From: Bryobacterales bacterium
GTDB taxonomy: Bacteria > Acidobacteriota > Terriglobia > Bryobacterales > Bryobacteraceae
Length of the DNA stretch: 64,000 bases
Reading direction: 5' to 3'
Assembly (NCBI GenBank): GCA_020847975.1
Contig: JADLBD010000012.1
Coordinates: forward strand, 1-64,000
The notes under the pieces are model-generated. The model worked only from the letters and a program-made list of their open reading frames with translations, made no database searches and was not told the origin of the DNA. Position 1 is the first letter of the stretch. Each line of letters opens with the position of its first letter. Position numbers and translations under genes: made by a program. Of the stretch, positions 16,146 to 26,358 are shown piece by piece.

Positions 16146-16213
16146 AGCGGTGGAGTTCGCTTACCGCCGTCTGAACCGGCCAATAACTCCTACAGGGATG
16201 TTCGCTGTGGGAG
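16146..16213 (+). promoter_or_regulatory. Fluoride riboswitch 1 (crcB motif)
   Basis: 16146-16161 reads AGCG-GTGGAGTT-CGCT, the stem-loop that opens the fluoride aptamer, and 16178-16195 reads GGCCAATAACTCCTACAG, whose ACTCC can pair with the GGAGT loop as the pseudoknot. CTCCTACAG (16187-16195) can instead pair with CTGTGGGAG (16205-16213), with one G-U pair, followed by CTTTTC; this is an expression platform in which the aptamer strand is shared with a terminator-like hairpin. It matches the well-known Bacillus cereus crcB-motif layout from memory. It faces the unknown gene at 16269. Confidence 0.8.
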
Positions 16214-16268
16214 ACTTTTCACCTTCCCAGCCCATCCCGGTAGTTCATGGAAAGGATCAGTGTGCCGT

Positions 16269-17108
16269 ATGGCCGCCTCCAGCAGTTGGTATGCTACGCC
16301 GTTTTTGATAGAAGGACGGAGGGATGTGCCGGCGGACTTCGGGGTGCTGGAGGAGGAAGAGTTCGAGTGCGGACTCTTTCTCCCGCAGGACGAACCGGAT
16401 TGGCTCGGCCGCTATGACTACCCGGCGCGTGTGCTGCTGCTGGGCAGGCAGAAACTCGTCATCATACCCCATCCCAATTCCCCGGATGACGCAACGCGGA
16501 TTGATTTGTCCTGGTTGAGCGAAGTGGAGCACGGGCACTTCCTGCTGCTCGGATGGCTGAGGTTGCCCTACCAGGGGAAAACCATCCTGCTGCCGTACAA
16601 CACGCGCGTCAGCTACCCGATCCGCGTGTTCCTCCACAGCCTCTGCCGCGCCTGGCAGCCTGCGGAGAGCGCCGCCCTCGAGGAACCGGCCATCCGCCAC
16701 GGCGATGAGATGACTTTGAAGTTCCATTTCGCGCTGCGGGAAGCCCTGTGGAAACAATGGGAATGCCTGACTTATTTTCAGGCTCCCCGCGCGCGGGGCA
16801 AAGGACGGTGGTTCCGGCGCAATCGTCAAATGGCGGGAGATCTTCTGGCGTTCGCTCGAGGACTCGCAATCTGGATTACGGATCGTCACGATGGGCATTG
16901 GAACCGCTACGGAACGCTGGTTCGCCACGCGCTGATGGATGAGACGTCAATGTTGAATGTCGCTGGGACCGGTGAAGATCTCGCTTTGGAAGCCAGGCTT
17001 TCGCGCGACACGCTGTGGCGTGTTTCGTTGCATCCGGAACATGCGCGGGCAGCGCTCGACTTCGTTTCGTCTTTCCAGAAATTGAAGGGGCAATGGAGCC
17101 TGCGCTAG
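16269..17108 (+). CDS. Unknown protein under a fluoride riboswitch
   Basis: About 279 residues; an in-frame GTG at 16260 would add three residues. AAAGGA at 16251-16256 is the likely ribosome-binding site. I do not recognise the family. Residues about 45-120 (YPARVLLLGRQKLVIIPHP ... GHFLLLGWLRLPYQGKTILLPYN) alternate beta strands in a way that could be a bacterial PH-like domain. The rest is mixed helical and rich in Trp, Arg and His. No signal peptide and no clear membrane helix, so probably cytoplasmic. It is the only gene after riboswitch 1 and converges on the chimeric enolase unit, sharing a CTAG at the two stops. Confidence 0.55.
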   Translation: MAASSSWYATPFLIEGRRDVPADFGVLEEEEFECGLFLPQDEPDWLGRYDYPARVLLLGRQKLVIIPHPNSPDDATRIDLSWLSEVEHGHFLLLGWLRLPYQGKTILLPYNTRVSYPIRVFLHSLCRAWQPAESAALEEPAIRHGDEMTLKFHFALREALWKQWECLTYFQAPRARGKGRWFRRNRQMAGDLLAFARGLAIWITDRHDGHWNRYGTLVRHALMDETSMLNVAGTGEDLALEARLSRDTLWRVSLHPEHARAALDFVSSFQKLKGQWSLR

Positions 17109-17929
17109 CGGCTCAACGCGGCCCTTCCCGCAAAGGTTGCGGAGGCCCCTAATTCTTCCTCGATTCGCAGAAGTTGGTTGTACTTGGCGACGCGGTCCGT
17201 GCGGCTGGCAGAGCCTGTCTTGATCTGGCCGGTACCAGTGCCCACCACGAAATCGGCGATAAACGCGTCTTCCGTCTCTCCGGACCGGTGAGACACAACA
17301 GAGGTATATCCCGCCGCGCCGGCCATGGCGATGGCCTCCAGGGTTTCCGTCACCGTGCCAATCTGATTGAGTTTGATGAGAATGGAATTGGCAACTTTTT
17401 GTTCGATGCCGCGCGCCAGTATCGAGGTGTTCGTGACAAAGATATCGTCGCCCACGAGTTGGATCTTGTCACCGAGGCTTTTGGTGAGCATTTGCCAGCC
17501 GGCCCAGTCATTCTCCGCCATTCCGTCCTCGAGGGAGAGGATGGGATACTGGCGGACCAAGTTGACCCAGAACTCGACCATCTGCTCCGGAGAACGTTCA
17601 CTCTTGTCCGATTTTCGGAAGACGTACTTGCCGGAACCGGCGTCATAGAACTCGCTGGCCGCCGGGTCGAGCGCAAGGGCAACCTCCCTTCCCGGCGCAA
17701 AGCCGGCTTTCGTAATTGCCTCGAGAAGGATGTCCTTGGCTCCCAATCCGGCAAGCGCGTCCACCGCCCAACGCCGCGGCTGATAGACGCCGCTCGGCTG
17801 GCCTTCGAGAAGGAAGCGGCGTAGGGGGTCGATGGCTGCCGGACCGCATGCGATCAGAGCGGAGACAGCGGATTCCCCATCCAGGAGCGAGTTCAGACCA
17901 TCGACGAGCACGTGGGGATCAAGGCTCAT
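17105..17929 (-). CDS. eno: Chimeric ORF: HEAT-like N-terminus joined to C-terminal half of enolase
   Basis: Residues 1 to about 68 (PLRRFLLEGQPSGVYQPRRW, AVDALAGLGAKDIL) look like a HEAT-type repeat. From AITKAGF onward the protein is the C-terminal part of enolase: LALDPAASEFYDAG, ILSLEDGMAENDW, LVGDDIFVTN, NSILIKLNQIGT, SVVSHRSGETED and IKTGSASRTDRVAKYNQ. The three Mg ligands (Asp, Glu, Asp) and the catalytic Lys are present. The enolase N-terminal domain and the first barrel strands with the catalytic Glu pair and loop His are absent, so ordinary enolase activity is not expected. It overlaps the MFS fragment by ATGA and lies downstream of riboswitch 2. A deletion scar is likeliest; an assembly join cannot be excluded. 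Confidence 0.75.
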   Translation of the reverse strand: MSLDPHVLVDGLNSLLDGESAVSALIACGPAAIDPLRRFLLEGQPSGVYQPRRWAVDALAGLGAKDILLEAITKAGFAPGREVALALDPAASEFYDAGSGKYVFRKSDKSERSPEQMVEFWVNLVRQYPILSLEDGMAENDWAGWQMLTKSLGDKIQLVGDDIFVTNTSILARGIEQKVANSILIKLNQIGTVTETLEAIAMAGAAGYTSVVSHRSGETEDAFIADFVVGTGTGQIKTGSASRTDRVAKYNQLLRIEEELGASATFAGRAALSR

Positions 17930-25026: not shown

Positions 25027-25038
25027 GCATCACCTTCC

Positions 25039-26247
25039 TTACGAACTCCTTTCCACTATCATTTTCCCGCTCGCCACCGCGGAGGCCAGGGCCGCTTCTC
25101 GTTCGAGGACATGCCGCGGCAGGAAGAAAGCATTGGCGATCACGGTGGGGATGACCGCGCTGCCGATTACCGTAGCCACCAGGTGGGAGTATTGAGCCTG
25201 ATCAATCACCGAATGATTCAATCCGAAGAGTGCCGAAATGGTTCCGAAGGTCAGGCCGGTGGACATCATGAGCGAATAATAGAGGCCTTCATGCCCCAGG
25301 TAATTGAAAGAGCGGACGGCGGGAACGAGCCCGGCGAGTTTCGAGACCATCTTCAAGAAAAAAAGCACGACAAACACCACAGGAGCGCCAAGTAAGACCG
25401 GGACGGAAACGAAGGAGCCGGCGCGAATGAAATAGAAGGGTGTGAGGAAGCCGAAGGTAAGAGTCCGCAGACGGCGGATGAGGATATGGTCTTTCCCAAC
25501 GGTTCCCGCCAGTACCATGCCGATCAGGTAGGCCGGCAGCACCGCCTCGCTACCGGACCAGACGGCAAGCCCGCCCATCCCGAAGAGAAGCAGCAGGATG
25601 TATTTCGCCTCCAGTTCGGATACGCGGCCGCCGAACTTGTCGAAGAACCAGGGAGTCACAAAAGGCAGCGCGGCGAAGACGAGAACGCAGACCACGATGA
25701 AGATTGCCGTGCGTATCGTAAAGGGAGAGAAGATGAGACCCAGCGCGATGACGGTGCCCAGGTCATTGACGAAGTAGGAAGCCAGAATCGCTTTCCCGAA
25801 TTCCGTGCGGTTAAAACCGAGTTCCAACATGACGGCGTAGACTACGGCAACCGATGTTGTGGAGAGGGCGACGCCGGCGAGCCAACTGGCAGGCCATGAC
25901 CATAAGAGCACGTAATGCGCGATCAGCGCGGCACCGAGAAAAGGCCCCGCAAACCCGACAATTCCGACCGCGCAGGATTCCTTCCACTTGGCACGGAAAA
26001 TCGCCGGGTCCAACTCCGCCCCGGCCAGGAACGTCAGTACGATGGCGCCAGTGCCCGCGAGGAAGCCGACCCATGAAGCTTTCGCGCCCAGGGCCTCAGA
26101 GCCGGCAACGGCGCCGATCACAAGCTGCGCCACCGTGCCGACTACGATTTCCGATAGCGCCGTCGAGATGTGGAAACAATTGGCCAACAGCACGGCAAGG
26201 AGGGCAAGAAGCAACCATAATGCTGCCACAAACCAGACTTGATCCAT
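25039..26247 (-). CDS. CPA2-type cation/proton antiporter
   Basis: 402 residues from ATG 26247, which has AGGAGATC just upstream; the in-frame extension to 26340 runs into the riboswitch and is rejected. About 12 membrane helices in the Na+/H+ exchanger fold, with GFLAGTGAIVLTFLAGAELD near 60-80, STTSVAVVYAVMLELG and the conserved acidic FVNDLGTVIALG near 165 in the position of the transport-site Asp. A KefB-type Na+ or K+/H+ exchanger is expected; anion specificity cannot be excluded. It is first after riboswitch 4. Na+/H+ antiporters are an established class of fluoride-riboswitch targets. Confidence 0.85.
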   Translation of the reverse strand: MDQVWFVAALWLLLALLAVLLANCFHISTALSEIVVGTVAQLVIGAVAGSEALGAKASWVGFLAGTGAIVLTFLAGAELDPAIFRAKWKESCAVGIVGFAGPFLGAALIAHYVLLWSWPASWLAGVALSTTSVAVVYAVMLELGFNRTEFGKAILASYFVNDLGTVIALGLIFSPFTIRTAIFIVVCVLVFAALPFVTPWFFDKFGGRVSELEAKYILLLLFGMGGLAVWSGSEAVLPAYLIGMVLAGTVGKDHILIRRLRTLTFGFLTPFYFIRAGSFVSVPVLLGAPVVFVVLFFLKMVSKLAGLVPAVRSFNYLGHEGLYYSLMMSTGLTFGTISALFGLNHSVIDQAQYSHLVATVIGSAVIPTVIANAFFLPRHVLEREAALASAVASGKMIVERSS

Positions 26248-26293
26248 TGGGATCTCCTGTTCTGAGTTGTCTGGGATCTGCCGTTGGAAGGAA

Positions 26294-26358
26294 CCCCTAC
26301 AGCATTCCCTGTAGGAGTCATTGGCCACCGGGGGCGGCAAAAAGCGAACTCCACCGCT
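26294..26358 (-). promoter_or_regulatory. Fluoride riboswitch 4 (crcB motif), upstream of antiporter operon
   Basis: Read on the minus strand, 26358-26343 is AGCG-GTGGAGTT-CGCT, identical to riboswitch 1, then TTTTTGCCGCCCCCGG, then GGCCAATGACTCCTACAG. CTACAG of the aptamer can pair with CTGTAG across a GGAATG loop (seven pairs with one flanking G-C), giving the competing hairpin. No U run follows, so control may be at the level of the ribosome-binding site about 45 bases on. The antiporter ATG is at 26247. Confidence 0.85.

Follow-up and report, generated by a model that had tools for sequence, protein, structure and literature searches.

Why do four fluoride-type riboswitch aptamers lie within about 10 kb of one bacterial genome, and what might they command besides fluoride export? 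The question is raised by positions 16146–26358 of a 64,000-nucleotide stretch (positions 1 to 64,000 of contig JADLBD010000012.1; hereafter the window) from a Bryobacterales bacterium of the family Bryobacteraceae, whose metagenome-derived assembly (GCA_020847975.1) comprises 8.67 Mb in 302 contigs and is 89% complete with 7% contamination. An initial annotation had read this segment as an island of four fluoride riboswitches, each facing its own transcription unit. We hold, with a probability of roughly 0.7, that each of the four aptamers would switch on one unit in response to fluoride, and that the two dynamin-like GTPases (dynA and dynB) in the unit of the fluoride channel gene crcB would act jointly on the membrane. 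In the light of the comparison with relatives, these dynamins are the least expected part of the island, though the initial annotation gave them no weight.

The Rfam fluoride riboswitch model RF01734 was run on the window twice, at its gathering score (34 bits) and then in E-value mode. By E-value, all four elements were recovered on the strands, and near the positions, first proposed: RS1 (16137–16199, +; 31.5 bits, E 1.6e-5), ahead of a PH-like gene; RS2 (18474–18542, −; 42.8 bits, E 3.2e-9), of the dynB type and ahead of gene remnants; RS3 (18640–18709, +; 25.2 bits, E 0.0018), ahead of crcB-dynA-dynB; and RS4 (26305–26367, −; 23.7 bits, E 0.0057), ahead of an antiporter unit. Only RS2 passed the gathering score. 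The initial annotation would have been refuted by the lack of a significant match at two or more sites; by E-value this did not occur, even with three of the sites under the gathering score. A covariance model built from 44 aptamers of other genera (R2; alignment A6, with the window and its genus excluded) aligned to RS1–RS4 over its full length with 53.2, 45.1, 45.7 and 56.9 bits, respectively (E 1e-12 to 2e-16), the fifth-best match in the window reaching only 11 bits. Elsewhere in the assembly no R2 match exceeded 14.7 bits and the next best RF01734 match had 17.2 bits (E 0.12), so that a span of 10.2 kb contains every strong copy found. An earlier model (R1) was trained on a set that includes the four copies from the window and represents no pairs but those of the pseudoknot; for these reasons it was not used as evidence for the window copies, for which R2 was used instead.

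The sequence signature from which the element had been recognized proved partly shared. A 14-base block (two mismatches or fewer) was counted five times in the window, where shuffled sequence gave 0.81 on average. The proposed stem-loop AGCG-GTGGAGTT-CGCT was exact in RS1 and RS4, while RS3 carried another loop (AGCG-GTGGGGTC-CGCT) and RS2 another stem (GGCG-TTGGAGTT-CGCC). The block complementary to the loop, GGCCAATGACTCCTAC, was exact in RS3 and RS4, with one change each in RS1 and RS2. Across the 44 relatives of A6, the expected structure (P1, P3, the pseudoknot and one long-range pair) was paired in 91.6% of cells, compared with 40–53% when partners were slid by 1–3 columns, and changes on both sides of a pair were found in 66 cells against a shuffled mean of 21.0; the measure of further pair types did not rise above shuffles (22 vs 21.0). 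Among 50 aptamers including the four window copies (alignment A1), P1 was complete in 48, at least five of the six pseudoknot pairs were present in 47, and the columns that we map to A40, U41 and U48 were invariant in all 50. In studied aptamers these residues are the linchpin and its neighbor, and fluoride with Mg2+ locks the pseudoknot via the A40-U48 linchpin (PMC8752731, PMC11077080).

Behind each of the four window copies lies a complement to its own CTCCTAC strand. In RS1 it was read from the sequence as CTCCTACAG / CTGTGGGAG, followed by ACTTTT (16187–16219, +). RS2 has the stem CCTACT / AGTAGG (18440–18486, −; tail fold −19.8 kcal/mol), RS3 the hairpin GACTCCTACAGATGGTTGTAGGAGTC (18695–18720, +; −16.6 kcal/mol) and RS4 the hairpin GACTCCTACAG / CTGTAGGGGTT (26292–26319, −; −16.5 kcal/mol). 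These competing stretches require the same strand as the pseudoknot. For a wider view we used the best 80 of 456 dynB loci, 77 of which were from Acidobacteriota by title; they held 178 R1 matches, or 174 after removal of four at E 0.013–0.049. A contiguous competing stem of at least 7 pairs was present in 60 of the 165 tails taken from these 174, whereas shuffling gave 10.4 on average and 17 at most. This anatomy supports an ON mechanism, in which fluoride locks the pseudoknot and the competing hairpin is avoided. Like the RF01734 aptamers of B. cereus and T. petrophila, the window copies combine P1, P3, the pseudoknot, equivalents of A40, U41 and U48 and a competing 3' hairpin on the pseudoknot strand (PMC8752731, PMC11077080); the lineage differs in that a U-run is mostly absent behind the hairpins. 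In the OFF state, termination, Rho action or ribosome blocking are candidates.

The link between aptamers and dynamins emerged from relatives within the family. Scanning 121 Bryobacteraceae genomes with R1 yielded 134 aptamers. They were spread over 60 genomes, of which 26 had a single copy and 34 had more, and included 12 divergent pairs less than 400 bp apart, the arrangement seen for RS2 and RS3. The first gene was identified behind 125 of these aptamers, nine weak matches (E 7e-4 to 9e-3) lying outside the census, and genes were recognized against the window's proteins and three proteins from locus L041. An antiporter came first in 27 cases, dynB in 23, dynA in 18, crcB in 15, enolase in 8, an AAA ATPase in 5, DUF190 in 4, the PH-like gene in 3, and CFA synthase and a major facilitator superfamily (MFS) transporter in 1 each; 19 had another gene and 1 had none. 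Thus dynB or dynA was the first gene behind 41 of the 125, vs 27 for the antiporter and 15 for crcB. The other genes still contain known fluoride classes, among them pyrophosphatase, MutS and CLC, for each of which a single case was checked.

Pfam Dynamin_N, a profile that does not depend on our own models, detected 68 genes in 40 of 122 family genomes. Of these genes, 62 lay within 10 kb of an R1 aptamer, where a genome size of 6.3 Mb would give a rough chance of 0.35% per gene, and 41 had a same-strand aptamer no more than 900 nt from the G domain. The window's own assembly also has three weak Dynamin_N fragments outside the island (C85, C184; 21.7–24.4 bits each), which pass the cut-off only together with their neighbors and do not belong to the 68. 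A dynA-type match was found in 37 of the 60 aptamer-bearing genomes vs 2 of the 61 others, both of which carry diverged aptamers, and 23 of 26 dynB matches had a same-strand aptamer 22–134 nt upstream. The relatives show the same genes as the island in many arrangements. The covariance-model matches, the kept stems, pseudoknot and switch residues, and the recurrence of the gene set behind aptamers in relatives support the reading of the island as fluoride-riboswitch controlled; as dynamins are the commonest class directly behind aptamers in the sampled relatives, a membrane-remodeling arm of fluoride defense is likely.

It might be objected that nothing sets this island apart from other fluoride-resistance islands, and that the dynamins are mere passengers, inherited with the crcB cluster and without a fluoride role. 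Indeed, crcB, antiporter, enolase and UspA are known targets of fluoride riboswitches (PMC11139923, PMC5533749), and in many Acidobacteriota loci crcB, DUF190 and dynA lie downstream of dynB in one unit. We nevertheless consider this explanation unlikely: the family dynB matches mostly have an aptamer of their own at the short distance given above, gene order varies widely, and crcB was in view in only 38 of the best 80 of 456 dynB loci, dynA being in view in 55 and not always adjacent. Moreover, the G1, G3 and G4 GTPase motifs were intact in 51 of 51 aligned dynB and 10 of 10 aligned dynA proteins. Among the same best 80 loci, dynB started within 260 nt of a same-strand aptamer in 62; 14 had an aptamer elsewhere in the locus and 2 were cut off.

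The association extends beyond the family. In a phylum sample of 199 genomes, the dynB profile matched in 25 (own genome included), mostly to the G domain only. Of the 28 loci outside the own genome, 26 were given to R1, and 19 of these, from 14 family codes, had a same-strand aptamer upstream, 16 of them no more than 162 nt from the dynB-profile match; the three weakest scored 16.9–22.2 bits. None of the 14 family codes had supplied training sequences for R1. When 15 loci were submitted to RF01734, 13 passed its cut-off, the exceptions being L228 (not found) and L222 (25.8 bits). A plasmid search returned only remote dynamins, and no match spanned 80% of dynB.

One base pair of the aptamer varies with the gene that it precedes. 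It joins the base directly after the P1 5' strand to the one that precedes the AU of AUGAC by two positions, and the Rfam consensus has A and U, respectively, at these places; we take the two bases to be residues 10 and 38 of the B. cereus aptamer, presumably in contact as in solved structures. In the family, 125 distinct aptamers were considered, 8 of them unparsed, and the 10-38 combination was Watson-Crick in 112 of the 117 parsed (shuffled mean 42.6, maximum 64), namely G-C in 54, U-A in 32 and A-U in 26; most lineage copies therefore have G-C or U-A, in contrast to the A-U of the consensus. In the best 80 of 456 dynB loci, 141 of 144 parsed aptamers were Watson-Crick (170 distinct, 26 unparsed), and A6 held 25 both-side changes in 44 sequences. 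The type was U-A in 23 of 23 aptamers preceding dynB, G-C in 27 of 27 preceding the antiporter and 5 of 5 preceding the AAA ATPase, and A-U in 6 of 8 preceding enolase, with crcB and dynA mixed; in the window, RS2 has U-A, while RS1, RS3 and RS4 have G-C. Gene class is also kept across genomes at the level of the whole aptamer, as the nearest relative elsewhere precedes the same gene in 71 of 105 cases, where shuffling gave a mean of 17.6 and at most 31. Only 4 of 103 aptamers have their best match within the own genome, and the aptamers are accordingly read as old paralogs. A freely covarying pair (A-U, G-C, U-A) that tracks the downstream gene looks new, as a second novelty beside the dynamins, and it offers a natural pair-swap series beside the fluoride site, sorted by target, with which a tuning of affinity or kinetics could be tested.

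This variation bears on two further explanations. According to the first, RS1, RS3 and RS4, which fall under the Rfam gathering score, are decayed and have lost fluoride sensing. Their low scores may partly reflect the departure of the 10-38 pair from the Rfam consensus, a departure that includes the compensated G-C common to all 27 antiporter leaders; their linchpin residues are kept, and R2, from which the genus was left out, scores RS4 and RS1 highest of the four. Decay of these three is accordingly extremely improbable. According to the second, the G-C or U-A variants sense a different ligand, or their tuning has shifted so far that fluoride no longer serves as the natural signal; in its favor, the pair adjoins the ligand site (by our mapping) and its variants sort by downstream gene. 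Since the change is compensated on both sides, A40, U41 and U48 are invariant, and the variants occur in the same loci as crcB, we regard this as very improbable.

The two dynamins follow crcB tightly behind RS3, with a 7-bp gap before dynA and then an ATGA overlap of the dynB start with the dynA stop. The crcB gene (18752–19165, +; CRCB 94.6 bits, TIGR00494 over cut-off) has an open reading frame (ORF) that opens at TTG 18752, TTG 18791 after GGAGG being the likelier start. The product of dynA (19173–20858, +; Dynamin_N 78 bits) is a dynamin-like GTPase resembling DLP2 of dynamin-like protein (DLP) pairs, with 5owv_C as its nearest solved chain (E 3.4e-24). That of dynB (20855–22828, +; Dynamin_N over cut-off) is mitofusin/Fzo1-like and nearest to 5owv_A (E 3e-23); which 5owv chain is DLP1 was inferred from length. 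Fold matches to dynB run mainly from residue 154 on and barely cover the rest, and the region before residue 190 is helical. In Campylobacter jejuni, DLP1 and DLP2 (5OWV/5OXF) are a membrane-tethering pair acting together; the two differing dynamins are neighbors and one has an extra N-terminal region, as here (PMC6104087). The present pair differs in its low identity and in the dynB N-terminal region, which is unmatched to the DLP1 assembly domain, and no fluoride switch is described for the C. jejuni pair in the available part of that article. Mitofusin/Fzo1 in turn differs from dynB in cellular role and membrane.

A dynamin pair could also be an anti-phage or general membrane-stress system that has borrowed fluoride control. 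Bacterial dynamins are tied to membrane repair (PMC6104087), and the PADLOC library gave weak matches to LeoA/LeoBC (LeoA 34.2 and 45.2 bits, with partial profile cover). Neither family and domain searches nor PADLOC recognized defense genes in the island, and control by fluoride aptamers is a consistent feature in the sampled family; such an origin therefore seems decidedly improbable.

Several observations nonetheless weigh against a fluoride-switched island with a working dynamin pair. Three of the four window copies remain under the RF01734 gathering score, and RS2 heads only remnants. The competing hairpin that the initial annotation placed at each copy stands as a complement behind all four, but the minimum-energy fold of the RS1 tail is another structure, and a U-run follows only 11 of the 60 competing stems mentioned above. 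Six of the 68 family dynamins lack a strong aptamer within 10 kb. Three of these have diverged aptamers 51–109 nt upstream of dynA (L222:5894–6007, +; L223:7243–7293, −; L224:8139–8210, −), with 16–19 bits by R1 and 20–28 bits by R2, possibly reflecting natural loss or change of ligand control; a search of another, G023:C190, found no aptamer, and the last two are in G022 and G099. Likewise, no aptamer was found in 2 of the best 80 of 456 dynB loci, and no same-strand aptamer upstream in 7 of the 26 loci outside the family. Relatedness of genomes inflates the counts, which are not independent events, and the best-80 and family sets share genomes. Lastly, we infer an action of the dynamins on fluoride damage from gene position only.

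On the mechanism that we favor, modeled on published riboswitch work, fluoride with Mg2+ would lock the pseudoknot, the competing hairpin could not form, and the unit would be expressed. CrcB would let fluoride out and the antiporter would restore the pH lost to HF entry. Least certain is the next step, in which DynA and DynB may combine into a heterotypic complex of the mitofusin/DLP kind and, under HF stress, tether, reshape or reseal the inner membrane, with the PH-like protein perhaps acting as their membrane adaptor. More tentatively, as a plausible rather than a probable extension, the fluoride-induced mitofusin-like dynamin pair with a PH-like partner may be a so far unrecognized membrane arm of bacterial fluoride resistance that is the leading target class in Bryobacteraceae and recurs across Acidobacteriota, the gene-specific 10-38 pairs (U-A for dynB, G-C for antiporter, A-U for enolase) giving each unit a fluoride threshold of its own. 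The usual account of fluoride toxicity is one of inhibited enzymes, with export as the countermeasure; if dynamins are truly the commonest class of fluoride-switch target in one family, attention would turn to the membrane as a place of fluoride damage or of defense against it. The natural triggers of bacterial dynamins are, to our knowledge, mostly unknown, and these proteins would gain a simple chemical inducer and a directly testable physiology.

Parts of this picture are already known: a genome may have several fluoride switches, such switches are known to cluster, and their established targets include crcB, antiporter, enolase and UspA. Methylobacterium extorquens DM4 has at least 10 fluoride riboswitches, with several per genome as here (PMC6785547), and genomic island GI3 of Enterobacter cloacae FRM clusters crcB, eno and uspA under fluoride-riboswitch control (PMC5533749). 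GI3, as far as described there, has one riboswitch, one six-gene operon and no dynamin, in contrast to the four aptamers and four units of the window. The dynamin pair as a fluoride-switch target looks new: a literature search that did not cover the 2012 primary gene list (Baker et al.) found no dynamin in this role in the text available, and the word dynamin does not occur in the accessible part of the fluoride review PMC11139923.

The unit headed by RS2 appears to be in decay. Its first gene is an MFS transporter remnant (17926–18333, −; MFS_1 27 bits, under the cut-off of 33.4) that aligns with the C-terminal part of a 426-aa MFS protein in L041. Behind it, a HEAT start is fused in frame to the second half of an enolase (17105–17929, −; Enolase_C at aa 64–271); the N-terminal part of the product aligns with HEAT proteins of L041 and L058, and the enolase part spans positions 214–422 of the eno model only, the N-terminal half of enolase being absent. 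Of the antiporter, enolase, UspA and crcB that the initial annotation had called a coherent set of known targets, enolase is thus present here as a fragment only and does not qualify as a functional target. The assembly has two full-length enolases at other places. L041 has an intact counterpart, an aptamer-dynB-CFA synthase-MFS-HEAT unit, and of the six aptamers from other genomes that are closest to RS2, four stand before dynB. From these we infer that RS2 formerly drove a dynB-type unit that has since decayed, dynB now being placed behind crcB and dynA, the position it also has in the same-genus relative L078. Positions 17105–18333 (−) look as if a longer fluoride unit had suffered two deletions, or as if the metagenome genome were mis-assembled here. 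In L056, likewise of the same genus, a single in-frame stop interrupts the enolase next to crcB-dynA-dynB (5575–7113, +), which makes decay of the island enolase within the genus a possibility.

Family and domain searches confirmed the gene units as first described. RS1 faces a gene for a 282-aa PH-like protein (16260–17108, +) with no family assigned and a predicted tandem-PH-like fold. The RS4 unit runs, in order, through a CPA2-type cation:proton antiporter (25039–26247, −; TIGR00932 107.1 bits, below the cut-off of 238.3), a double DUF190 protein (24304–25026, −; DUF190 184.7 bits in two stretches), a DUF190 protein (23982–24359, −; 91.2 bits), a universal stress protein (23567–23989, −; Usp 96.4 bits) and an AAA ATPase (22839–23630, −; AAA_22 33.5 bits), the genes overlapping or lying 12 bp apart.

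A CFA synthase (Pfam CMAS) was found in the dynB unit or behind its own aptamer in L041 (3834–5063, −), L084, L105, L115, L129 and L134, and would, by its family assignment, be a second membrane-directed gene in the fluoride regulon. The combination of dynB with fluoride aptamers was also seen in metagenome-assembled genomes labeled Methanoregula (L117, likely mis-binned) and Limisphaerales (L155), either through faulty binning or through transfer from one phylum to another; together with L144 these make up the three of the best 80 dynB loci not titled Acidobacteriota. In the family census, five of the 19 first genes outside the named classes were TolC-like, that is, outer-membrane-efflux-like (G128:C229, G027:C238, G029:C300, G153:C69 and G032:C420), a label given by eye and confirmed by Pfam OEP only on a relative in L056. 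At the right border of the island, an ORF at 26470–27372 (+) has a DUF4351 C-terminus and presumably resembles Rpn-type proteins.

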